In this document: in pieces, positions 10,220 to 31,211 of the stretch
How the letters are laid out: the number at the start of each line of letters is the position of its first letter
Numbering within the stretch: position 1 is the stretch's first letter
Source: Aphanomyces cochlioides
Lineage: Eukaryota; Oomycota; Saprolegniomycetes; Saprolegniales; Verrucalvaceae
Length of the DNA: 64,000 nucleotides
Direction: 5' to 3'
Assembly: GCA_019828595.1 (NCBI GenBank)
Contig: JAHQRK010000016.1
Location: 744,001-808,000, forward strand
The notes under the pieces: generated by a model
Told to the model about the DNA's origin: nothing
The model's input: the letters and a program-made list of their open reading frames with translations, nothing else
Database searches by the model: none
Program-made: the position numbers and the translations under genes

Positions 10220-11727
10220 ATGGCGACAAAGAAGCTCTCGTACTATGAGAAGCTGCCACTGCCGCCGAAATACTTCAAGTGTCCGCCGCTCTCGATGGAT
10301 GAGACCAAACAATTGCTCTTCATGGCCGATAGCCTCTGCATTGACGTGGTAGGCAAAGTCAAGATTCCAGACAGATAGATCTCATGGAGAGGCCAATCCA
10401 TAGGTGGACTATGCGACGATCAACGGAGGACCGCTCAATTGGACGCTCGAGAGTGATGAGAACGAACTCATGACGTTTAAAGCGGAAGATATGAACGCTC
10501 CACCTGGAACGAGAACGTGGGCATGGACGACCGAGCTCCAGGGCACGCTGGTCGAAGTCATGGACATGTTCCACACGGACATCGTCGACCCGGAAGAATA
10601 CCGTGAATACTGCCACAAGTTTCACATGGACGCGCTCGATGGCGTACGCTTGTACTGCTTGGAATCCACGCCAGACCACTACGTTGGTGTCCACTGGACG
10701 GTCAACGAGTTGCCAGGATTGATCAAGAACAAGGATGTCTGCTTTGTCAAGAACCGCGACTGGTGCTTCCTCGAGGTATTCTCCCTTGCATCCTCCTTGG
10801 GTTTTAACATCTTTCCGCCAGGCGCACTCGCAGATTGAGCTGGCCGATGGTCGCAAAGGCTGGGTCCGTGCTCTCTCGTCCGTCGAACTCAATTGCTGTC
10901 CTGATCTCAAGAACGCTCTGGGTTTTATCCGTGCCAACTACCACCGCTCGGGCTTTCTTTTCACGGAGAGCGTCACTCGTCCTGGATATCTCGACGTGAC
11001 GCAGCTCCAGCAGATTGACTTTCGCGGCTCGCTCTCTGAAATGTTTGCCAGCATTGAAATGGCCGAGCGCAAGCGCGACATCCGCGAACTCGATTTGAAA
11101 TTGCGCGTCTACAGACTGAGTCAGACGCCGTTCCTAGCGGAGCATGAGCTCGTGTCTCGCGAAGGCCGAAGCAAGTGCAACGTGTGCCAGGCCAAGTTTG
11201 GCCTCCTCATGCGAAAGCACCGATGCCGCAAATGCGGCGAAGTCGTTTGTGCCAACTGCAGCAAAGTCTGGGATGTCAAAGTCGCTGGCATTCACTCGAG
11301 CATGCGCGTTTGCTCGTTGTGTTCGTGCATCGGCTCTGTCCACCGCATGTCTGGTGTGCTTCGTCGTGGCACAAGCACGTACGCCCCCTCGGTAACTGAA
11401 GTCAGCACTTTCGATTTTGACGACACGGCGTCCGTCGCGTCGTCGATGAGCCACTCTGGCGCCCGCCTCCGTCGCCGACAACGGACTCCGTCAACCGCTC
11501 GAAGCAGTTCGACCGGCAGTGGAACGGGCAGTGGGACGAGCTTATACACGCCTCGGCCCATATCGCTCGGCAGCAATGCCGACGACGACGAATTTTCGCA
11601 GTACACCGAGTCGTTCTTGACGATCCCTGACGAGCCGCGCTACATGAAGCCCAAGAAAACGGTCGAGCTGCCTCCTGTGAGCCACGAAAACGATATGATC
11701 AAGATCGACTTCAGTCATCTTGGATAA
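10220..11727 (+). CDS. START-like/FYVE zinc-finger protein, copy 1
   Basis: Three exons: 10220-10348, 10404-10775, 10822-11727 (introns 55 and 46 bp), giving 468 residues. It begins MATKKLSYYEKLPLPPKYF. Residues about 20-250 form a START-like lipid-transfer fold region of the oomycete type (..YVGVHWTVNELPG..). Residues about 278-335 are a FYVE-type finger with four CxxC pairs, the basic RKHRCRKCG patch that binds phosphatidylinositol 3-phosphate, and a final RVCSLC. The N-terminal WxxD motif of classical FYVE domains is absent. The C-terminal third is Ser/Thr-rich and probably disordered. The predicted role is recruitment to PI3P-bearing endosomal membranes; the cargo is unknown. It is a tandem paralogue of the genes at 13606 and 17911. 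Confidence 0.88.
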
Positions 11728-13605: not shown

Positions 13606-15042
13606 ATGGACATCATGACAAAGAAGCTCTCGTACTTCGAGAAGCTGCCACTGCCGCCCAATTTTTTCCCACGGCCAGAGCTGACGGAAAATGCAACGCA
13701 ACGACTCCTCGAACTTGCCGACATCACCGCCGAGGATTTGGTACACTTGTACTTGATCCAGCGACGCTAACCCGTGTCTTCCTTAGGTACATTATGCTCG
13801 CTTGACGAACGGACCACTTCCATGGCACCTCGATGTTGAAAACAATGATCTACAGATGTACAAAGCCGACGACCCGGACGCTCCACCAAGTACACGCAGC
13901 GTGGCGTGGAAAAGCATCGTCGCGTCCACGCTCGATGAAATCGCAACCATGTTCAACACTGACATCGACGACCCAGTGGCCTACCGCGAGTACTGCAGAG
14001 AGTTTCACAACAATGCCCTCGACGGTGTGCGGCTCTACTGCCTCGAACGATCGGTCGACCGCTACGTCGGCGTGCACTGGACGGTGAACGAGCTCCCGGG
14101 GCTCATCAAGAACAAGGACGTCTGTCTTGTCAAGAATCGCGACTGGTGTTTCCTCGAGGTACGAGTCGTCCGTGACATTCGCAGCGTCTCATCGATGCTT
14201 TGTAGACTCAAACTTGGTTTGACATGGACGACGGACGTCGTGCTTGGGTGCGAGCGTTGACGTCGCTGGAGTTTGCATCGTGCCCGAGTTTAAAAGCATC
14301 TCTCGGCTTTGTCCGTGGCAATTATCACCGCGCAGGCCACGTCTTTGTCGAGAGTCATTCGAATCCAGGACATGTCGACGTGACGGAGATCCTCCAGTTT
14401 GACTATGGCGGCGATCTCACGGAAATCTTCCAAGCCCTCGAGCTCAAGAAGCGGACAAAAGCGCATCGCAACCTCGAGAAGAAGCTCCAAACGTTCCGCC
14501 TTCGCCAGATTCCCTTGCTTCCAGAGTGTGCACTCGTCCCCCGCCGAGCTCGAACACACTGCAACGTGTGCAGCCATAAGTTTGGCCTCTTGCTCAAGCG
14601 GACGCGGTGTCGGTCGTGCGGTGAAGTGGTCTGTGGCAACTGCAGCAAGTCTTGGCCGCTGTCTCACACTTCGGTTCGTCTCTGTGTGCTCTGCTCCGCA
14701 GGACTGAACGAGTCGCTTGCCATTGAAGGATCCAACTCGAGCGAGTCGGTGTACAGCATGGCCTCGACGACGTCGGCGACGTCGCGCCAGTTTACGCATG
14801 GCTGGTCAAGACGTCTCGAGTCGTTTGATCTCGGCATCCAGCGCAAGACTTTTTCAGAGGAGAGCTTCTACTACGACGACCTTGACAGAGCGTCGCTCTA
14901 CTCCATCGCGACATCACAATACGAGGCAGCGTCGAATGCATCGACGGAAGACACGGACACATCATCGGTTGTATCTCTACGGCAGCAAGACTTGGAGCCA
15001 AACCCCATTCTGTCTTACAGCACAATGCGACGCAGATCGTAA
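13606..15042 (+). CDS. START-like/FYVE zinc-finger protein, copy 2
   Basis: Exons 13606-13740, 13787-14158 and 14206-15042 (introns 46 and 47 bp) encode 447 residues. The start MDIMTKKLSYFEKLPLPPNF matches copy 1. The middle exon has exactly the same length (372 nt) as in copy 1 and ends at the same DWCFLE position. The START-like region again carries YVGVHWTVNELPGLIKNKD. The FYVE-type finger reads TRCRSCGEVVCGNC near its core and ends VRLCVLC; the basic patch (KRTRCRSCG) is kept but WxxD is absent. The C-terminal tail is Ser/Thr/Asp-rich. PI3P membrane recruitment is inferred from the family. Confidence 0.88.
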
Positions 15043-17910: not shown

Positions 17911-19510
17911 ATGGAGGCTGCACGACGTCCTGACGGCAAGCTGCCGCTTCCTCCGGGCTTCTTCCACTGCCCACGCCTCACACCCGACACGGTGCGATCC
18001 CTACAGAAACAAGCCGACCAAATGGCCGTCGATATCGTACGTCTCGCTCTTGTCTTGCGCAGCGCCATTCATCGTGGACATTTGTCGTTAGGTCAACCAG
18101 TCGCAACTCCATCAAGGACCGCTCCACTGGACGCTCGACGTGGACGATCGAACGCTCCAGCAGTATAAGACGCATGACATGATGGCGCCGCCTGGAACTC
18201 ACAGCTATGCGTGGTCGAGCGTCGTCCTCGGCACGCTCGACGAAGTCGTGGCTATGTTTGAACCACCCGCGATGAACGACCCGACCCGATACCGCGCATA
18301 CTGCCATGAATTCCACCTCGGCGCTCTCGACGGCGCGCTTCTGTACAACTTGGAACAGTCGCCGTCGCGGTACATTGGCGTCCACTGGGTCGTCAACGAA
18401 CTCCAAGGCGTCGCGGGCCAAGCGTTGATTAAATACCGCGATTGGTGCTTGCTCGAGGTAGACCCTCAACCACTTCGACGGACGCTTGCTCACTCTCTCT
18501 AGGTCCACTCGTCGTTTACACTCGACGACGGACGCCGCGGATGGGTGCGCGCCGTGCAATCCATCGAGATGAGCTGCTGCCCCGACTTACGAGCGTCCAA
18601 AGGCTTCGTCCGAGCGTTCTGTCACTTGGGCGGTCATGTCTTTGTTGAGAACGCCAACCGACCGGGATATCTCAGCGTGACGGAACTGCATCAAGCCAAC
18701 TATGGCGGCGATCTCCCGTCGCTGATTGTGTCCCTCGAGGCGAAACGCCGCGCCAAAGCTCACAAGGAACTCGATGTCCTGCTCCACGCCTTCCGACTCA
18801 GTCGCGTCTCGTTTGTCTCGGAGGACAAACTCGTCTCGCGCAAAACTCGCAGCGCATGCAATGTTTGCCACAACGGCTTTGGCTTGCTGGGGAAGAAGCT
18901 CCACTGCCGCATCTGCGCCGAAGTCGTTTGCTCCACGTGCTCCAAGTTGTGGCAAATCCGTCAAGCGCTCAACCAATCGACCAAAGTGCGCATCTGTTCC
19001 AAGTGTTCGTACGGAGTGCATCATACAAAGTCGTCCGGCACCATGTTTGCCGACATGATGGACGACAGTGCGAGCTACGACGGCGACGACTGCACGAGCA
19101 CGGCGGCATATAGCGAGACCACCGCCTCCAGCTCCAATCTGCGCGTCAACTTTCGACGGTTCTCGTCCGGGGTGGCGCCCTCTCCAGTCCCGACTGGAAC
19201 GTCGTCGTCCAGAGGGAATCCGTTTGCATCGTCGCAGCAAGGAGGCATCCTCCGCATCGACGACGACGCGTTTGATATCCTCACGGACCTCGAGACGGCC
19301 TCCATGTACTCGGACTCGACACGCGAGTCCTTGCCAAACTACCACAGACACCACCAAAACCCAGCGCATCATCCGCCCGTCATTTTGATGGACGAGGACA
19401 CACTCTCGTCCTTCATGACCATCCCGGCGTTTGATACAATACCAGCCAAGAGCCCGAGACCGACAGAGGGCGGCGTCCGCCGCAACGATTTGATCCCCCT
19501 GAGGTCGTAA
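17911..19510 (+). CDS. START-like/FYVE zinc-finger protein, copy 3
   Basis: Exons 17911-18036, 18092-18457 and 18503-19510 (introns 55 and 45 bp) encode 499 residues. The start MEAARRPDGKLPLPPGFFHC aligns with the other copies, as do both intron positions. The START-like region has YIGVHWVVNELQGVAG, with GVAGQALIKY replacing the GLIKNKDVCFVK stretch of copies 1 and 2. The FYVE-type finger includes KKLHCRICAEVVCSTC and KVRICSKC: the Gly after HCRxC is Ala here, and WxxD is missing. It is the most diverged and longest of the triplet, with an extended Ser/Asp-rich C-terminus. Function inferred as PI3P-dependent membrane recruitment. Confidence 0.87.
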
Positions 19511-19572: not shown

Positions 19573-22026
19573 TCACGCAGGGTCGCCGCTTCCGCCGCCA
19601 TGTTCTTTATCTACCTCGAGCTCTAACTTGTTGGGCGTGCTCCCGTCCGATTCATGCTGCGAGTCCCGTCCTGCGTCGGCTGCTTCATTCACCGTGACGA
19701 GATGGCCCGTTTCCAGGAATCCAGCCGACTGGGAGCCGTCGTGCAAAAGTTCCTAAAAAAGTGTCGACACTTGCAAGTTGATCGATCTTACTTTGACGAC
19801 GCCTTTGATCTGTGCATGTTTAAAACTGTCGTCTCGTTGATTCCACCACTCTCGATTGTCCATGAGCATGGCGTAGCCGTCGTCGCGGACTTGCGTGCTA
19901 ATATTTGACCAGACGTGGAAGAGCGGACAGACGACAAAGTCGGCAAAGCTCACTTGCATCTTCTTGAGCGCGAGCGTCGCGCGGTCCATGAAGGGCGACA
20001 CGACAAGGCCTAGCGCTTTTTCCTTGTCCCCTTGATTGAAAAACTCTTCGACGACACGGTCTGTCCATCGCAGCATCGTCGCTCGGATCTTGGCTGGGTT
20101 CGACACGTCCGACGTATGGATGATCATCTTCATCAAGAGCTTCTTGTCCCTGCGGCGGTCATGAGAGCGTCCAGCAATGGTTGCACCCACCCGAGCGTTT
20201 TGATCTCCAACGGATCCTCCGCTCTCTGTGGCATGATGTTCGTCTTGAAGAGCGCAACGTCTTCAAAATGCTTGGCCATGTCGGTGCCAAGCACGAGCTG
20301 GATCACCATGTCGCGGGAATATCTAACGACGATCACGCCTTGCAACCAAGTCGATGGACTTACTTGTAATCTTCCAGCGTGAGCTTGCCGAAAAGCATGC
20401 ATTGAGCGCTCTTCATGGTTAGAAAGGCTTGCGCGACGTGATAGTTTTCAAGGACGGCCGTGTCGTTGTAACGAATGGCGAGCTCCGAGCCTGCCACGTC
20501 ATTACAACCCGACGACGGTTCGATACCAAACGTACCGGATGCGATGTGAAACCCATTGTTGAACCCATCGTGGCGGTAGTCGTGGATCGCTGCCGAGATG
20601 AGGATGAGCGTCCGATCGAGTGGTCTCAAGAACGGAGAGATGGTTTCTCGCGTCATGAAATAGTTGGCGGTCTGCATCACGTCGGCGGCATGCGTTGCAT
20701 TATGATATGGATTCAACGCCACGTAGCCCTTTTGGATCTCGATGAGGAAGACCGCGACGGTGTGTGCGTCAATGTTGAGGTTTTGCTCGGCCAGGTCACG
20801 AAGGAGGATGTAGCCGATGTGAGTGAGCGCATTGTTCCTCGTGATTTCTACAAAGAACGGCGGGAAGAACGACCGAGGAATCTCAAGTACCTTGAGCTCG
20901 AAAGATGTCGAATGTCCAGTCGGTGACTCTTTCCATGAGTTCGTTAAAGTGCCGCCGCGCCGAATCCGACAGTGGGAAGAGCTCGTCTGTGATGCCGGAA
21001 TTCTCCTTGTGTAATGGCATCCCCGGCCGCAAAGGCCGTCTGTCCGGGCCAATCTCTCCAAAGTCGGGCGTACCAGGCGACGGGGCGACAGTCGATGCGT
21101 CATTCTTCTTGAGCAGTCCTTCTCGGAGCCAGTCTTGGGTGTCTTTGTCGAGGTTTTGCCCCTTGATCATGTGCTCGCCCGCGTCGTAGAGCTTGTTGTT
21201 CTTGATCGCGTAGATGGCGTAGTCAATGTCGGTTTGAGTGCTTGGCTTGATCGCAGGATGGTACCGCAGTTCATACAGCGTCGCCAAGACTGTTTCGATT
21301 GGTGTTTGGAGAGTTCCCCCTCGGCGGGCGTGCTTGAGTAAGCTTGATCGTTGCTTGATCCGCTCAAAGACGACAATGATACGAAAGATGCGCAACAGAG
21401 GTCGGAGGCGCAAGAGCGTCGTAAAGGCCGCATTGTTGTTTGCCGAGTCGCCCGACACGTAGCTCGACAGACTCAACGCGAGTGTGCCGACGACGACAAT
21501 CGAGTCGAAGCAGTTCCAAAAGCTGTACAACAGGAACACACCAAAGGCAAACAATCGCAGCGCGAGCTCGACGGTCAAGATCGAGCTGACAACCAAGTCG
21601 ACCATATCAAAGCTGGCTTGGTATTGCTTGAGCTGCGTGTCAAACGTCATTTGGACAATCTAGACACAACAGAGTCACTCGAAGAGCGAGAGGACGTCCG
21701 TGTCGTACGACAAAGATGCCATAGCAGATGACGATCGAGATGAAAAAGATTTCCACTTTGATGTTGGTGACAAACGTGCCGACAATCGCTCGGGGTCTAC
21801 AAAGACAGCGACGAAGGCATTCCATGGAGGAGGTGCAGATCAGGACGTACTTGATGAGCCATCCAGGAGCGCGAGATCGTTGCCGCCGTGCCCGTGAATT
21901 AGTGCGAGGGTTTGGCGGCACATCGTTCACGCTCTTTCGCACTCCAGAAGGAAGCGCATCGGATGGAACAACGGAACGCGAATTGGGCTTGACGCTGGCG
22001 CGAGGCGACTTGACGCTCACGTTCAT
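19573..22026 (-). CDS. Voltage-sensor domain fused to cyclic-nucleotide phosphodiesterase
   Basis: Seven exons on the minus strand (22026-21851, 21796-21709, 21659-20891, 20847-20364, 20322-20191, 20149-19792, 19752-19573; introns 39-54 bp) keep one frame of 728 residues. Residues about 66-190 form a four-helix voltage sensor: S1; S2 with E119; S3 with D140 (NCFDSIVVV); S4 with Arg 172, 174, 178 and 181 (LLRLRPLLRIFRIIVV). There is no pore helix pair. A linker of about 120 residues leads to a class I 3',5'-cyclic nucleotide phosphodiesterase domain (about 330-690) with metal ligands in HNATHAADV (393-401), HDYRHDGFNNGF (433-444, matching the family signature), LAIRYNDTAVLENYH and HTSDVSNP. 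It is predicted to hydrolyse cAMP and/or cGMP at a membrane under control of membrane potential. The start at 22026 is the first ATG of the open exon; an extra upstream exon is possible because the frame is open to a CTACAG acceptor-like site. Confidence 0.88.
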
Positions 22027-22918
22027 GTCAAAGAAACTGTAGAGGATCCGATGTACGTAGATGAGACCGCGGCGCCAATGCCGTTGACGTCAATGTTGCT
22101 CCACCCGCCTCTCTACTTTTCGTCGTGAAACTGGCGTAACAGACTCCAAATATAGACAACCGTCGTCCGAGAGTAACTGATCCCGTTTTTTTCAAATGCA
22201 ATGGCAATCAACTCGTTTAGGCTCACCCTTCTGTCGATTTGTGTTGGCATGGAGTCGTGGGGCTCATGCAATTGGGCTCATACTCTTACCGCCACTTTCG
22301 AAGGGGCTAAGTGAACTACTTGAGATTGTTTCCACGGAGAGTAGAGTCACTGTGTTCTTGGGGGAATCCTATTCACTTCGAGGAGAATGGAACAGTCGAC
22401 TCAAAATAAATATCCTGTCATGATCTTGTGGCGGCGGGGGGGGAGAGCAGAGTGTCATTACCAACAGAGCCCCACTCAGCTCTTCCTATGATGGCCATGC
22501 AGTCGAAATGTCCAAGACTTTATCTCTATCTCTTCTCGCCTATGAGAGCACAAAATGACTATTAAGTCATGCCGTCGTGCTAAACTACGAAGTGCACAAG
22601 TATGGAATTTAGCCCCACGCTGTTTCTCTCGGTTCAAGCTCAGACATATATGGTTTCTGCATCGGTTTGTCTTTCTCCGCGATCCAACGCGCAAGCTCAA
22701 TCGCCACCCGTTTAGCTACACGTCGAGCTGGATCGACTTTTGAAGCTTACTGCTTGGTGCTAACTACCATGACTTGACTGGATTCAATTGACTCAGTTGG
22801 GCTGAATTGCCAGGAACAACAATGCAGATAAAGCACTAGGCCACGATACGAGGCGCTGCTGCAATTGATCAAGAATGACGTGGCAAAAGCCTGTGCAAGC
22901 TCGACCATGATATGGTCC
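22027..22918. other. Intergenic region between divergent genes
   Basis: No supported gene. It should contain promoters of the voltage-sensor PDE (leftward) and of the zinc-finger gene (rightward). A G-rich run lies at about 22433-22443. Confidence 0.45.
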
Positions 22919-22945
22919 TCCGGATAATGATGGTAGTTATCCGGT
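22919..22945. promoter_or_regulatory. Inverted pair of CCGGATAA sites upstream of the PHD gene
   Basis: CCGGATAA and TTATCCGG face each other about 45-70 bp before the ATG at 22989. The same TTATCCGG core recurs upstream of CSE1 and of the purine gene. It may be a promoter element or a scar of a TIR element family (compare 25553-25922). Confidence 0.4.
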
Positions 22946-22988
22946 TAACCCGACCGTCCATGGCACAGTTCACCAGAGCAAACACTTG

Positions 22989-24972
22989 ATGGGGTTCCGC
23001 GGAATCTTCCTCCGTCGATCGCAGGGAGAAGGCGAAGTGACCGCCAAGTTCCACATCGTCTGTGCTCAAGCAGAGCTTTGCCTTCTAATTGAGCGAGAAA
23101 CCGCATCGGAAATCGATCCTTCTGGCGTCGTGGATGCCAAAGTCCTCCTCAAGAATGCAACGAACGGCGACCTTCTCAGTGTCACGCGCATGACAGACGT
23201 GACGCTAGAAGTCGGCGCCATGTTTTGGATAGCGGATACGACCGTACATTGTTTTCAGTTTACGTCAGACAATAGCTATGCCCAAGTCCAGCGAGCTGTT
23301 CAGTCGTTGCGCCACACGGAGGAATTGGCCCTCATGCGAAGCGCCTTGTCTTTCCATCGACTCGACGACGAAGCCAAGACTAAAACGTCCATGTGGAAAC
23401 ATTACACGGCGTGCACTAAACTAGACAGATCGGGTGCTGCTGTACGCATACCACCGGGGATTTCGCAGTCTGAAGCGTTGTTCTGCTTGTAGGAGTTGTT
23501 GGAACCTGCCGACGTTCCAAAGAAAGTACAACCCGTGCCCAAGAAGAAAAACAAAGTCAAGGCCGACGAAACCAGCGAGCTCCCTCCGCCTCCGTTGAAA
23601 AAGCAAAAAGAAGTGAAAGAACCCGAGACAGATGCCGCGGGTGCCATTGCTTTCAATACACAATTGATGGTTGTCATTGACCCCAAGCAACCTTCGAGGT
23701 ACAATGCCTTCTTCTCCTTCCTTCTCGATGCTTAAGCTCACGTAGCGGTCCTGGCTGTCATATCTGTCTCCGACGGTGGGTCAGTCGTCTATCTTCTTAA
23801 ATTGACATGGTTTGTAGACAAGGAAAGCTCTTCACATGCCCAAATGGTGTTGTGGATCATGTCATCTGTGGGCGATGCTTGTTTCACCGGTTCAAACTCA
23901 ACACAGCTGACCTCTTTGAACGCGGAATCCGCTATAAATGTCGTCTCTGCACCAACGAATGTGCTTGCTCTCGATGTACTCAACCTCCCGCACCATCGTC
24001 GTCCCCTACAGCATTGGCAGCAGCGCCAAATCCAATCCCGAAAGCTTGTCTGCATTGTCGCAAAGGAGATGCTGCTATTTTACGACTCCATCCTCATCTC
24101 GACAAGGTACATTGCTCGCATCAAGTCGAGAACGTCATTAATGCTACAATCGTAGCGCTTTATCTGCACGACGTGCGCCAAGCCTCTCGACGCAACTGTC
24201 ATTCCCAACAATGCTTGCTTAGTCTGTGGCCAAGCCAAAGATGTATCAAACTGTAGCCAATGCTCCAAGAAGTGCTGCGCACCATGCAATCTAAAGCTAA
24301 ATCATGCTGGCTGTCCATTTTGCTCAACTCCTCCGTATGTTTCCACTTCTAGCTGCTTGAGGATTAATTCTTTGCTAGGACCGTGACATCGGCGGACCAG
24401 ATAAATCCCCAAGATTGGCATACGTACTTGGCCTCGTATGTTCAGTTTCTAATTCACCGAGAGACGCGCCGCAAGGCTCCCAAGCTCTCAGAGGACTCTT
24501 GCTTTTGCTGTAAAGATGGTGGCATGCTCATAGAATGCGATTACAAAGCGGACCCCAAAGCACCACGATGCCCCAAAGTTTATCATTTGGGTACAAGCTC
24601 CCATCATCTCTTCGCAGTTTCTTGACTTTGTTTAGATTGCCTTGGGTTTGAAGTGCCAGACGACGTCACGTGGCATTGTCCACGCCATGTCTGCGGCTTT
24701 TTAAAGTGCACTTCCAAGTCCAAGTTTGTCTGTCGTTATTGCGTCGCAGCGTATTGTGAGGTACAATTCGTCTTGCACTTCACTGTTCCCTGACCTTCCT
24801 GGCACAGCGCCACTTGCCGAAAGAAGCCAACAAATTATTTGCTGCGACGCAAGACACGCCGGCGACGACGTACATAATATGCTCGACGTGCAGCGAGCAA
24901 CTCCAAGAAGCCGAGACGCGTGGACTTCTCCCTCCCAACTTGTACAAGACGCCAATTAATCAAAAATACTAA
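22989..24972 (+). CDS. Multi-zinc-finger protein with NSD-type PHD-C5HCH module
   Basis: Eight exons (22989-23441, 23493-23698, 23746-23775, 23818-24106, 24156-24334, 24379-24590, 24636-24760, 24808-24972; introns 42-51 bp) join in frame to 552 residues. The N-terminal 150 residues are not recognised. A Lys/Pro-rich linker with KKKNKVK may hold a nuclear signal. Then come a Cys-rich block starting CHICLRRQGKLFTC and ending CACSRC (zf-4CXXC_R1-like), further CxxC pairs, and finally CFCCKDGGMLIECD..CPKVYHLDCLGF..WHCPRHVC..CRYCVAAYC. This last block is the PHD plus C5HCH arrangement of NSD methyltransferases, but no SET domain follows. Likely a nuclear chromatin reader. An alternative 3' end exists: a TACTAACGTTAG intron-end signature overlaps the stop, so another exon near 24973-25250 is possible. 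Confidence 0.78.
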
Positions 24973-25552: not shown

Positions 25553-25922
25553 ACTATCCGGATAAAATTCGTTAACCTGAATGCACCAACGAGACTGCAG
25601 TCCCAACTCAACTTGAGCATCAGCATAATTGCCTCAACAGGTCTCCTCAGGGCGGCGGCACGGCCTTACGGTCAAACTGCCCCCTGGAAAAAATATTAAT
25701 ATCCCTTTTTGGTGCATGTTTGGGGCTCCTCCTCGCACCATCCACCCACAGAAAACTTTTCACTCGGCCTTCGCATTGCTCTGGTGAGTGCAATTTTTCT
25801 GGGTGAATATCTGACGTCGTCCGCGCACTATAGGGCTTTGTCAATGAAGTACTGTAGTGCATTGCTCGAGTATTATTGTACGGCGAAACACTGTTCGGGT
25901 TCACGAATTTTATCCGGATAGT
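25553..25922. repeat. MITE-like element with TATCCGGATAAAATTCG ends
   Basis: 25553-25581 and 25894-25922 are inverted repeats matching at 26 or so of 29 positions, beginning ACTATCCGGATAAAATTCG. The right end coincides within two bases with the point where the acyltransferase copies start to match (25921). No transposase and no clear target duplication. Confidence 0.6.
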
Positions 25923-27128
25923 CCTGACATTGATGGACTCCGAACACTGGCAGTCGTGCCTGTTGTGCTCTTCCATGCCTACCCTGAACTCTTTCCCGGT
26001 GGCTTCATAGGCGTCGACATCTTCTTCGTCATCTCGGGATATCTCATCTCTGGCATCCTTCTCAAGGAACACGCCGCCGACCAATTCTCCTACTACAACT
26101 TCTACAGCCGCCGTATTCGACGTATCTTTCCCATCCTCCTCGTTGTCTTGTCCACGACACTCTGGATGGGATGCTTGTACTTCCTCGCGTCGAAACTCAA
26201 GGCGTTGGCCGCCACCATGCTGGCTGGATCGCTCTTTTGTGCCAATTTACAAGTGCTCTCGTTGGAGAAGGGATACTTTGACGACGACATCAAGACGAAT
26301 CCGTTGTTGCATTTGTGGTCGTTGGGAGTGGAAGAGCAGTTCTACATCATTTGGCCCTTCTTCGTGTCGCTCGTGGCTCGACTGACATCAATTCGAAGAG
26401 CTGTGGTGTACCAAGTGGTCTTTATGGGATTGAGTTTCGTGATGAATGTGGCAATGTTGGGATTCCATGGGACGAACAAGTTTTCGTTTTACTTTCCACT
26501 GTGTCGGTTTTGGCAAATGTCCATCGGTGGTCTCGTGGCTTTCCTCCACTCGCATGACGCTCTGAAGCAACTGGGGACATCCAAGTTGATGTCCATCTCT
26601 GGTTTGATTTGTATCGTGATAGGTTTCATACTGATCGACGAGTTACGAGCTTTTCCAGGGTATTGGGCGTTATTTCCAACGTGTGGAGCTGCTCTTCTGA
26701 TCGCAGCAGGACCCGAAGCACCGTTCAATTACAACATTTTGAGCTCGCAAGTCATGGTGTATGTTGGAAAAATCAGCTACGCGCTCTACTTGTGGCACTG
26801 GCCATTGCTCGTGTTTGCCAAGGCTCGCTTTCCGAACGACGCCTTCCGTCCATTCTACATGCAGCCATACGTGATGATATTGGTGGCTGTGGCGTTGAGC
26901 ATCAACTTTTCAGGATTTGAGAACCGCGTTCGCCGTATCAAATCGAAGTGGGTTGTAGTGATCTTGTTGGTGATCATGGCTGGAGTGTCCGTGTTGTCTT
27001 TGGCCGTGTACAAGTTTCCCAAATCGTTTTCGTTGACTGAATTATCATTCCAAGACGTGGTCCCGCCGACTGACATCGAGTTGGAAGTTGTCCCTGAAGT
27101 GTCCGAAGTGGCAACAAACGCGTCCAAC
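25921..27128 (+). repeat. Left arm of 1,208-bp inverted duplication
   Basis: Reverse complement of 29210-30417; paired coordinates add to 56338 throughout, so there is no length difference. Translations in several frames agree exactly, so the identity looks complete. The two arms cover the acyltransferase membrane domain only. Confidence 0.93.
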
Positions 27129-27950
27129 AAGTTGCCAAAATCGTTTTTGATGACAGAGTTGTCAGCTCAAGACGTGGCACCACCCAAAGACTTTGAAACC
27201 CAAATCATGCATGCCCTTGTGGCGCTAGTTCAAAGTGCATTAAACGCCTCTGCAACCATGAATTCCGATAACATCTCAAGCGTCGTCAAGGTCACCAGTC
27301 GGATCTCGACTTCCCAAACTGTGCAAGTATCTCAAGATGGAGGCACTTTGGCCCAACCAAACCCAAGCCGTGAACGGTTTGTCAAACAGGTCACATTTCG
27401 ACAAGCTGTGGCGGCGTGGAAGGATATGGATGACGCGTGGTTTGTGAATCTCATCGCCCTGGACGAAAAGTCTGTCTACGGCTACCACAAACACGCTCAA
27501 ATACTCAATCCAGACCATGAAGCCACAGACGGCCTTGTCGTTGTCCTTGGCGACTCCCATGCCGACATGCTCAAACCGCGGTTTGTCAAACTGTACCGCA
27601 AAGCCCAGAAAGGGAATGCTTCGTTCCCCACCATGGTGTTCAAAACGGACTATGGTCCACCGACGCTGTCCTGCAGGACTGACACCCAAAAAGATTTCGA
27701 CATGGTACTTCGAACAACAAACGAAAAAAACACACTTGGCTTTTCGATTCAATCGAGGCAGCAACTCGTGACGCGAACGCCACACTGATCGATTTCTCGG
27801 ACAATTTGTGCTGGCAAGACAAGTGTGCCGTCGTCAACGGCAATGGTGAACCAATTTACGCAGACTCGAACCACTTTCGGGCCTTTGCGTCACTAAATTA
27901 CCTCAGTGTGCTCGACCAAATCCCCCCAGCAGGGTTAAGGCACCACAGAA
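25921..27950 (+). pseudogene. Acyltransferase-3/SGNH gene, broken copy
   Basis: Related to the intact gene at 28232-30550. The N-terminal part equivalent to its first 40 or so residues is missing; the frame is formally open from a GTG at 25857, but those residues are unrelated. From PDIDGLRTL onward the acyltransferase-3 membrane domain is intact and identical to the other copy through residue-equivalent NASN. The C-terminal SGNH region then diverges and, after DFDMVLR (about 27711), lacks about 105 codons and resumes in another frame (LFDSIEAATRDANATLIDF..) to about 27950. The loss removes part of the SGNH fold, and the ORF stops at 27788. It probably cannot make a working enzyme, although the membrane domain could be expressed. 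Confidence 0.85.
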
Positions 27951-28231: not shown

Positions 28232-30550
28232 TTAAACTTGATGTATCAGCCCTGCGGGAGGGATTTGATCGAGGACATTGAGATAAGTTCGAGACGTGAA
28301 CGCTCGAAAGTGGTTGTTGTCCGAGTAGACAGGTTCCCCGTTGCCGTTGACGACTGCGCATTTGTCTTGCCAGCACAAATTGTCCGAGAAATCGATCAGA
28401 GTCGCGTTGGCCTCACGAGTCGCAGACTCGATCACATCAAAAAGCCACGCATGTTCTTTGCGATAAGCAGACAAACTCAGCGGCTCATGGACGTGCTTGA
28501 CTTGGTTGTTTTCCATCCATGACCAAAAGTAGAAGAACCAACTCTCGACGTGAAGCTGGGCGACAAATACACGAATCCCTGCCGCCGTTAACGTCTTGAC
28601 TTGGTCCTTCCACCGTCGAAGGAGTTCCTCGGCATCTCTAGGGCTCTGCTTCTCGCATATTTTATCGTTATCAAAACAGCATGGAGGATCGTCGTGCAGT
28701 GGATCTGTAGGTTTTCCATCAGGACGAAGGTATTGACTCCAGTGGACGCTGTAAAACACAGCTTGGGGTTTCACTCGGAGAATCATGTCGAAATCTTTTT
28801 TTGTGTCTTCTCTGCACGTCAGCGTCGGTCGGCCGTATAAAGTTTTGAACACCATGGTGGGGAACGAAGCATTCTCCTTCTGGGCTTTTTGGTAAAGCTT
28901 GACAAACCGAGGTTTGAGCATGTCGGCATGGGAATCGCCGAGCACAACGATCAGGCCATCCGTGGTTTCGTGATTTGGATTGAGGATTTGAGCGTGGTAT
29001 TGATAGCCATAGGGAGACTTTTCATCCAGGGCGGTGAGATTTGCTGACCATGCATCGTGCATGTCGCTGCCCCCCGCCACAGCTTGCTCAAATGTTACTT
29101 GCTTCACAAACTTTTCCCGACTAGGGTTTGGTTGACTCAACTTCGATCGATCTGTTAAAGTTGGTGTAGACGATGCTATGCTTGGGAAGGTGGCATTGGT
29201 ACTGACAAAGTTGGACGCGTTTGTTGCCACTTCGGACACTTCAGGGACAACTTCCAACTCGATGTCAGTCGGCGGGACCACGTCTTGGAATGATAATTCA
29301 GTCAACGAAAACGATTTGGGAAACTTGTACACGGCCAAAGACAACACGGACACTCCAGCCATGATCACCAACAAGATCACTACAACCCACTTCGATTTGA
29401 TACGGCGAACGCGGTTCTCAAATCCTGAAAAGTTGATGCTCAACGCCACAGCCACCAATATCATCACGTATGGCTGCATGTAGAATGGACGGAAGGCGTC
29501 GTTCGGAAAGCGAGCCTTGGCAAACACGAGCAATGGCCAGTGCCACAAGTAGAGCGCGTAGCTGATTTTTCCAACATACACCATGACTTGCGAGCTCAAA
29601 ATGTTGTAATTGAACGGTGCTTCGGGTCCTGCTGCGATCAGAAGAGCAGCTCCACACGTTGGAAATAACGCCCAATACCCTGGAAAAGCTCGTAACTCGT
29701 CGATCAGTATGAAACCTATCACGATACAAATCAAACCAGAGATGGACATCAACTTGGATGTCCCCAGTTGCTTCAGAGCGTCATGCGAGTGGAGGAAAGC
29801 CACGAGACCACCGATGGACATTTGCCAAAACCGACACAGTGGAAAGTAAAACGAAAACTTGTTCGTCCCATGGAATCCCAACATTGCCACATTCATCACG
29901 AAACTCAATCCCATAAAGACCACTTGGTACACCACAGCTCTTCGAATTGATGTCAGTCGAGCCACGAGCGACACGAAGAAGGGCCAAATGATGTAGAACT
30001 GCTCTTCCACTCCCAACGACCACAAATGCAACAACGGATTCGTCTTGATGTCGTCGTCAAAGTATCCCTTCTCCAACGAGAGCACTTGTAAATTGGCACA
30101 AAAGAGCGATCCAGCCAGCATGGTGGCGGCCAACGCCTTGAGTTTCGACGCGAGGAAGTACAAGCATCCCATCCAGAGTGTCGTGGACAAGACAACGAGG
30201 AGGATGGGAAAGATACGTCGAATACGGCGGCTGTAGAAGTTGTAGTAGGAGAATTGGTCGGCGGCGTGTTCCTTGAGAAGGATGCCAGAGATGAGATATC
30301 CCGAGATGACGAAGAAGATGTCGACGCCTATGAAGCCACCGGGAAAGAGTTCAGGGTAGGCATGGAAGAGCACAACAGGCACGACTGCCAGTGTTCGGAG
30401 TCCATCAATGTCAGGACGATATTGCATTTCATGGCTGGGCTTCGCAGGCTGGAGTTGTAGCTCTACTACTTGAGGAGATTTGGTCGGCAAGAGCTCTTGG
30501 TCGTGGGCCGTTGGTGTCGGTTGGATCGGCGGCTCTGCTTCTGGTGGCAT
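28232..30550 (-). CDS. Acyltransferase-3 / SGNH-hydrolase fusion protein (OafA-like)
   Basis: A 772-residue single-exon frame. After a Pro-rich 40-residue start, YRPDIDGLRTLAVVPVVLFH and FIGVDIFFVISGYLIS mark the acyltransferase-3 fold, about ten membrane helices, to about residue 410. This is the O-acyltransferase type used for acetylation of cell-surface sugars. A linker leads to an SGNH-type domain with GDSHADMLKPRF and a C-terminal DNNHFRAF that could supply the Asp-His pair. In bacterial OafA relatives the membrane part passes acyl groups to an extracytoplasmic SGNH domain that acylates polysaccharide. Here a cell-wall or glycan substrate is inferred. It faces tail-to-tail the broken copy at 25921. 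The bacterial-like architecture and intronless frame would fit an old horizontal transfer, unproven. Confidence 0.88.
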   Translation of the reverse strand: MPPEAEPPIQPTPTAHDQELLPTKSPQVVELQLQPAKPSHEMQYRPDIDGLRTLAVVPVVLFHAYPELFPGGFIGVDIFFVISGYLISGILLKEHAADQFSYYNFYSRRIRRIFPILLVVLSTTLWMGCLYFLASKLKALAATMLAGSLFCANLQVLSLEKGYFDDDIKTNPLLHLWSLGVEEQFYIIWPFFVSLVARLTSIRRAVVYQVVFMGLSFVMNVAMLGFHGTNKFSFYFPLCRFWQMSIGGLVAFLHSHDALKQLGTSKLMSISGLICIVIGFILIDELRAFPGYWALFPTCGAALLIAAGPEAPFNYNILSSQVMVYVGKISYALYLWHWPLLVFAKARFPNDAFRPFYMQPYVMILVAVALSINFSGFENRVRRIKSKWVVVILLVIMAGVSVLSLAVYKFPKSFSLTELSFQDVVPPTDIELEVVPEVSEVATNASNFVSTNATFPSIASSTPTLTDRSKLSQPNPSREKFVKQVTFEQAVAGGSDMHDAWSANLTALDEKSPYGYQYHAQILNPNHETTDGLIVVLGDSHADMLKPRFVKLYQKAQKENASFPTMVFKTLYGRPTLTCREDTKKDFDMILRVKPQAVFYSVHWSQYLRPDGKPTDPLHDDPPCCFDNDKICEKQSPRDAEELLRRWKDQVKTLTAAGIRVFVAQLHVESWFFYFWSWMENNQVKHVHEPLSLSAYRKEHAWLFDVIESATREANATLIDFSDNLCWQDKCAVVNGNGEPVYSDNNHFRAFTSRTYLNVLDQIPPAGLIHQV
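29210..30417 (-). repeat. Right arm of 1,208-bp inverted duplication
   Basis: Partner of 25921-27128. Confidence 0.93.
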
Positions 30551-31211
30551 ATGCTCCTATTTTGAAATGGACGGAACTCTTCTGCTTGTTTCACGAAAAT
30601 GCACCAGCTTCTTGTGTGTGATTTTGGGAGATTTGAATCTCATCGGACGATTCTATAGGCAACGTGATCTCAGTCCAGAAGACCACGCTCAAAGTCCTCG
30701 CCAAGATGCTGCCGTCTGACGTACAATCACTGAAATATGTCATTGATTGTCAAAATGCTCAAGCTGGCTGAAAATTCTCAATGGACGACTGAGCTAGCCA
30801 ACGTGTGGCTGTGGACACAGATAGTGATTACTCACTTTTGGCGACACCTCTGCCGATCTTTATGGTGAGATAATCCTTCACGATGACAAGGCAGCCGAGA
30901 TATCAGCCGGAGTAGGCATTGATGGAATACAGTGAAATTTCCAGTGTCTCATCCTTCAAAATCGCTGTCGCGCGATCGCTTTGTAATTTCGCTGGGACGA
31001 AACCAAGAGACTAACTCTTGGTCATTGATGAAGCAGGGAAAGATCGGAGGCATGTTGTGGAGTTCTCAATGAGCGCTCAAAGCCGAAAGAAACTTTGGAA
31101 GCAAAGCTTGAATTTACATAACGCCACAGTGCCATGAATCGCACACAAGGGGTTCGTAGTCTAAGTGTCGACAACTCGGGCAAATCCACTCGAGACGAAA
31201 GGAAAGCTAGC
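30551..31211. other. Intergenic region
   Basis: Upstream of the acyltransferase gene (leftward) and downstream of the SAPS gene. No supported gene. Confidence 0.45.

Follow-up and report, generated by a model that had tools for sequence, protein, structure and literature searches.

A predicted voltage-sensor domain joined to a class I cyclic-nucleotide phosphodiesterase across the oomycetes sampled

A gene on the minus strand of the window (the whole 64,000 nucleotide stretch of Aphanomyces cochlioides DNA that was analysed) was found to join a voltage-sensor domain (VSD) to a class I cyclic-nucleotide phosphodiesterase (PDE) in one polypeptide. The sensor retains its S4 arginines and the acidic residues of S2 and S3, and is predicted to gate. 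The PDE has a complete PDE4-like catalytic site and is predicted from its sequence to hydrolyse cyclic nucleotides. In sequence comparisons the VSD-PDE join is kept across the oomycetes sampled.

The coding part spans 22026-19573 and was modelled against P0001 (Aphanomyces euteiches, 714 aa), the nearest protein. The initial annotation had proposed seven exons and 728 residues; GT-AG boundaries could be assigned to all six introns implied by that layout (39-49 nt each), giving a draft of 731 aa that was 95% identical to P0001, but the exon count and length did not stand. Comparison with P0001 located an extra in-frame GT-AG intron of 54 nt (21850-21797, GTACGT..TTGTAG) at the same spot as 18 draft residues that are absent from P0001, and it was therefore removed, giving 8 exons and 713 aa. 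The same residues are also missing from other relatives. Pairwise alignment of the 713-aa model with P0001 contained a sole gap of one residue, at the N terminus, and residue numbers in the window are those of P0001 minus 1. The Pfam domain search and the relatives search used the 731-aa draft as query.

Exon 1 (21851..22026, 176 nt) encodes a presumably cytosolic N terminus, exon 2 (21709..21796, 88 nt) most of S1, and exon 3 (20891..21659, 769 nt) the end of S1, S2-S4, the linker and roughly 30 residues at the start of the PDE fold. Exon 4 (20536..20847, 312 nt) carries the YHN..H and HD..H motifs of the PDE, which continues through exons 5 (20364..20490, 127 nt) and 6 (20191..20322, 132 nt) to exon 7 (19792..20149, 358 nt) with the HTSDVSNP and QVSFADF motifs. 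Exon 8 (19573..19752, 180 nt) encodes a C-terminal tail, predicted to be disordered, and the stop. Introns 20890-20848, 20535-20491, 20363-20323 and 20190-20150 lie inside the PDE domain. Exon 3 is open throughout and codes for residues 89-344, the structural match to PDE4 starting at ∼residue 312. Since this exon holds S2-S4 and the beginning of the PDE in one frame, the fusion is independent of any splice junction.

The VSD (residues 71-201, 21321..21762 with intron 21708-21660 inside) was matched by Ion_trans at an E value of 1.6e-10 over profile positions 5-120 of 241, corresponding to the S1-S4 half. At E ≤ 0.1 the Pfam search returned only PDEase_I, Ion_trans and a sub-threshold Bestrophin match, with no PTEN-like phosphatase domain. 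No S5-P-S6 pore was found in the stretch from S4 to the PDE (residues 203-310), where the highest 19-residue hydropathy was 0.29, in agreement with the pore-less arrangement initially proposed. The VSD structure was predicted separately, because a PDB search with the whole model was filled by PDE4 and was uninformative on the VSD. Prediction of the membrane part had been set beforehand, in the initial annotation, as a test able to refute the assignment; it gave a four-helix voltage-sensor bundle with transmembrane helices S1-S4.

Acidic residues had been noted in S2 and S3, and E119 (S2) and D140 (S3) proved invariant in 39/39 aligned family members; S2 D110 (P0001 numbering) was kept in 38/39. 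The S4 helix region (21321..21422) contains R172, R174, R178 and R181, then E187, R188, K190 and R192. R174, R178 and R181 (P0001 R175, R179, R182) were present in 39/39 members and R172 (P0001 R173) in 37/39, being replaced by Thr in Peronospora matthiolae and by Lys in P. effusa. The S4 charges were mostly retained even in Hyaloperonospora. The four S4 arginines first described are therefore present, but their spacing is 2, 4, 3 rather than regular.

The nearest solved fold of the VSD was Ci-VSP, with VSD-bearing channels tied in Z score (14.9-14.8), a level that helical bundles attain more easily by chance. Together with the layout, this fold supports the parallel with voltage-sensing phosphatases (VSPs) that had been drawn from the sequence. 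When the Achlya VSD was aligned with wild-type Ci-VSP (4g80), R172 faced R217 (located via the R217E mutant 4g7v), and R178 and R181 faced the Ci-VSP arginines 6 and 9 residues after R217; R174 faced Val, and the next Ci-VSP Arg faced Val (V185-equivalent). Against the mutant 4g7v the same program moved the S4 register by three residues. The first register (R172 on R217) is likely the correct one, favoured by a structural alignment to Ci-VSP that is near gap-free (1-136 on 101-236). The position that we take to be the aromatic charge-transfer-centre residue is occupied by Leu. With Val for the fourth Ci-VSP Arg and Leu for this aromatic, voltage sensitivity may be small or shifted.

The VSD is followed by conserved helices at residues about 205-275 (21099..21311), a candidate coupling element recognised from structure prediction and also recognisable in the more distant relatives P0049 and P0050. 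Searched with a profile of this linker, the PDB yielded no sequence at E ≤ 10 and Pfam no plausible family. A resemblance to PDE4 UCR2 was presumed, and identity as a PDE4-like UCR2 autoinhibitory module was rejected in the absence of any PDB or Pfam match by sequence.

The catalytic domain (residues ∼312-644, 19822..20990) was matched by PDEase_I at an E value of 5.2e-75. It contains the metal ligands (two His, His-Asp, Asp), the proton-donor His and the purine-clamp Gln/Phe, and the active-site residues checked were intact in 39/39 family members, confirming the complete class I PDE originally proposed. Human PDE4 and PDE8 and Schistosoma PDE4A were nearest in both sequence and fold, and the PDE4-type Asn is retained. 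In a viral structure library a phage hydrolase alone passed E ≤ 0.001; the top of these matches comprised HD-type phosphohydrolases only, with nothing informative for the VSD.

The relatives search returned 61 proteins, 48 of which were placed in the family (P0001-P0048). Named oomycetes supplied 35 of the 48 (Saprolegniales, Peronosporales, Pythium and kin, Lagenidium, Albugo), and both precomputed Pfam domains were present in 44/48, which supports the initial reading of one gene. The remaining four (P0043, P0046, P0047, P0048) carry the PDE domain alone, P0046 and P0048 being short models. Alignment A2 was assembled from 39 of the 48 members (26 from named oomycetes) and five non-family rows; P0004, P0006, P0032, P0039, P0041 and P0045-P0048 were left out as truncated, over-extended or redundant. 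At E ≤ 0.001, PDEase_I was detected in 44/44 rows of A2 and Ion_trans in 39/44, the rows without it being, by subtraction, P0049, P0050, P0052, P0057 and P0061, all outside the family. P0004 lacks S1. In P0047 (Peronospora destructor) S3-S4 are garbled and the PDE is intact, through genuine decay of the sensor or a fault in the assembly or gene model. P0006 (Thraustotheca clavata, 1233 aa) fuses the VSD-PDE with a protein similar to that of the adjacent upstream gene at window ∼22911-24625 (+), and is probably a gene-model artefact that reveals a common neighbourhood.

A VSD-side search with P0014 gave 47 proteins, and all those with a named source were oomycetes; P0050 as query gave three proteins. 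The relatives search scored the 7993 candidates sharing most words, and word-match searches could miss a ciliate or other protist VSD-PDE. Among word-matched candidates with a named source, no fusion with a charged S4 was found outside oomycetes. P0049, P0050 and P0067 have the same layout and linker, but their S4 carries few charges and Ion_trans gave no match; they may form a voltage-insensitive branch that is either older or degenerate. In P0067 a PKD_channel match fell below threshold. The search for the fusion in other stramenopiles, proposed at the outset, found it throughout the oomycetes sampled, and beyond them only in these three relatives with a largely uncharged S4.

The assembly around the window comprises 76.2 Mb in 94 contigs. 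PDEase_I gave 18 matches, which were grouped into 11 loci. The VSD exon found its own locus and one weak channel match, and the VSD profile matched none of the open frames at the 10 remaining PDE loci, so the VSD-PDE gene is single copy. The nearest other VSD (L036, C1:3289500-3296500) lies in what appears by eye to be a channel of two-domain, two-pore type that includes an EF-hand-like stretch. Two PDE loci on contig C6 (L015 and L016) have long upstream frames with 5 and 6 hydrophobic segments and no Pfam match, and 2 further hydrophobic segments in a neighbouring frame; they are candidates for oomycete GPCR-PDE bigrams and fit that class better than the VSD-PDE does. By eye, none of 31 cyclase matches lay within 10 kb of an Ion_trans match among the matches listed, and no VSD-cyclase was recognised in the four regions examined. 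Weak cyclase matches at L033 and L034 lie in frames that resemble, by eye, soluble adenylyl cyclases with ATPase-like regions. Within the window, three FYVE zinc-finger genes lie in a row on the plus strand (10723-11724, 14206-15039, 18503-19507), the last convergent with the VSD-PDE gene. Two Acyl_transf_3 genes (25848-27785 (+) and 28235-30556 (-), the second with an SGNH domain) encode membrane O-acyltransferases of a type that is common in bacteria.

Rates of change in the two domains were compared on a concatenated tree of 28 of the 39 aligned members, with fixed topology and some weak nodes. Total tree length was 6.2 for the VSD and 3.4 for the PDE. For the Peronospora/Hyaloperonospora clade the VSD/PDE branch-length ratio came to 4.5 (3.1-6.3), against 1.3 (0.9-1.9) on other Peronosporaceae branches, a ratio of ratios of 3.3 (1.9-5.1) with 0/60 site bootstraps ≤ 1, the bootstrap resampling sites, not lineages, and the signal being carried by three taxa of a single clade. 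Peronospora, Hyaloperonospora and Peronosclerospora lack zoospores, while Plasmopara and Albugo are obligate biotrophs with zoospores. Ratios were not clearly raised in Plasmopara (2.0, 1.0-4.1) or Albugo (1.2, 0.7-2.3), and Peronosclerospora (about 1.45, 0.73-2.71) had no VSD acceleration. High ratios also occurred at the zoosporic tips Lagenidium (3.8) and A. stellatus (2.95). Faster VSD drift where zoospores were lost, Peronosclerospora excepted, is suggestive only of a zoospore link, and bears only indirectly on the role in steering or encystment first proposed. In P. infestans nearly all cyclic-nucleotide genes, PDEs included, are described as spore-stage genes in a class-level statement (PMC5322657), and cAMP and cGMP are reported there, from cited work, to be unchanged during zoosporogenesis.

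From the sequence and the structural models, the protein is probably, with moderate confidence, a membrane-anchored cyclic-nucleotide PDE whose activity would be set by membrane potential in the manner of a VSP. The N terminus, linker and PDE would all be cytosolic, and the linker would transmit movement of the sensor and alter PDE activity. In Ci-VSP depolarisation raises enzyme activity; by analogy, depolarisation would most likely raise PDE activity and lower local cAMP. It may prefer cAMP over cGMP, given that the nearest solved relatives are PDE4 and PDE8 and the PDE4-type Asn is kept. The most speculative step places the enzyme in zoospores, perhaps in their flagella, where it may counter a VSD-cyclase.

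The four-helix domain might instead be a voltage-sensor-derived anchor or dimerisation platform, its charges stabilising the fold and the PDE working independently of voltage. We regard this as unlikely, though deserving of weight. The membrane part can exist without sensing, as P0049, P0050 and P0067 keep the layout with a mostly uncharged S4; the VSD also evolves faster than the PDE overall, and many apicomplexan PDEs are reported to have N-terminal membrane helices with no known sensor role (PMC10865986). A mere anchor, however, would not need the S2/S3 acids and S4 arginines that are conserved amid varying hydrophobic residues, even in Hyaloperonospora. It is quite improbable that the protein senses voltage as a subunit, on behalf of a complex with channels or a VSD-cyclase and not for its own PDE: VSD-cyclases occur, according to PMC12223298, in the zoospore membranes of P. 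parasitica, and the A. cochlioides genome encodes many channels, but any partner is hypothetical and no VSD-cyclase was recognised in the genome among the matches listed.

Conduction of protons or cations by the VSD, with the PDE as a regulated or regulating passenger, is very improbable. Among proteins with a single VSD, Hv1 gave some of the best sequence matches (3wkv, 1.2e-7; 5oqk, 8.6e-7), but its mid-S1 Asp (D112 in human), which we take to be the selectivity residue, aligns with Tyr in the Achlya relative, and Tyr is found in 37/38 members with a residue there. An artefact of two adjacent genes or a broken gene is scarcely credible. The first model did rely on six small introns called by eye; a two-gene or frame-break reading is nevertheless ruled out by the single open exon 3, and the relatives agree, both domains occurring together in independently predicted proteins and the corrected model aligning with P0001 almost without a gap.

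Electrical control of cAMP and cGMP through a voltage-regulated PDE seems not to have been described before. No description of a voltage-sensing PDE was found in the open-licence literature. A figure of a 2023 review, said to show all VSD proteins reported, includes channels, a phosphatase, an exchanger and a pore-bearing cyclase, and no PDE is named among VSD proteins in the available text (PMC10651576). In Euplotes, according to one paper, PDE and ion-transport genes are adjacent, not fused. The architecture itself is already on record, since database entries named ‘Phosphodiesterase’ list both Pfam domains for these proteins. Few voltage-sensor enzymes are known; this one would bring cyclic-nucleotide breakdown under voltage control, and its gene is a candidate natural tool for voltage-controlled cAMP. 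We tentatively suggest that it may be a voltage-gated PDE, the first enzyme with cAMP/cGMP breakdown set directly by membrane potential, kept across oomycetes and possibly acting in Phytophthora as an off-switch opposite the VSD-cyclases; zoospores might use it to convert electrical cues (root fields, K+ and Ca2+ currents) into a cyclic-nucleotide response, with neither a channel nor a G protein in between.

Among known systems, Ci-VSP and TPTE2 are alike in that a pore-less S1-S4 sensor immediately precedes a signalling enzyme of soluble type, which clears a second messenger close to the membrane, and Ci-VSP also in S4 Arg spacing, which is similar in the wild-type alignment. The VSP enzyme is a PTEN-like lipid phosphatase, whereas here it is a class I PDE, with one S4 Arg fewer and a long helical linker of its own. 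The Phytophthora VSD-cyclases PPTG_13136 and PPTG_13761 likewise combine, in oomycetes, a pore-less Ion_trans sensor half with a cyclic-nucleotide enzyme; both were found in P. parasitica zoospore membranes, and PPTG_13136 was immunolocalised mainly to one zoospore flagellum, in a paper whose main text does not contain the word ‘phosphodiesterase’ (PMC12223298). They would make cyclic nucleotides, whereas the VSD-PDE would destroy them. The ion channel-adenylyl cyclases of Paramecium, Tetrahymena and Plasmodium also unite a voltage sensor and a cyclic-nucleotide enzyme in one chain, but are described as retaining a K+ channel pore and synthesising cAMP (Weber 2004, cited in PMC10651576, PMC12223298). 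Oomycete GPCR-PDE bigrams, reported as three P. infestans gene models, similarly place a membrane domain before a PDE, but with seven GPCR-type helices (PMC5784254, PMC6033456), where the VSD-PDE has four helices, a charged S4 and a match to Ion_trans. Human PDE4 and PDE8 and Schistosoma PDE4A share the catalytic domain with all active-site residues; all three lack a VSD, and UCR1/UCR2 were not found by sequence in the VSD-PDE linker. Judged by sequence and predicted structure, the protein is distinct from a VSP (no phosphatase), a channel (no pore), Hv1 (no S1 Asp) and a GPCR-PDE bigram (four helices), and falls within the broader group of fusions between voltage sensors and enzymes.
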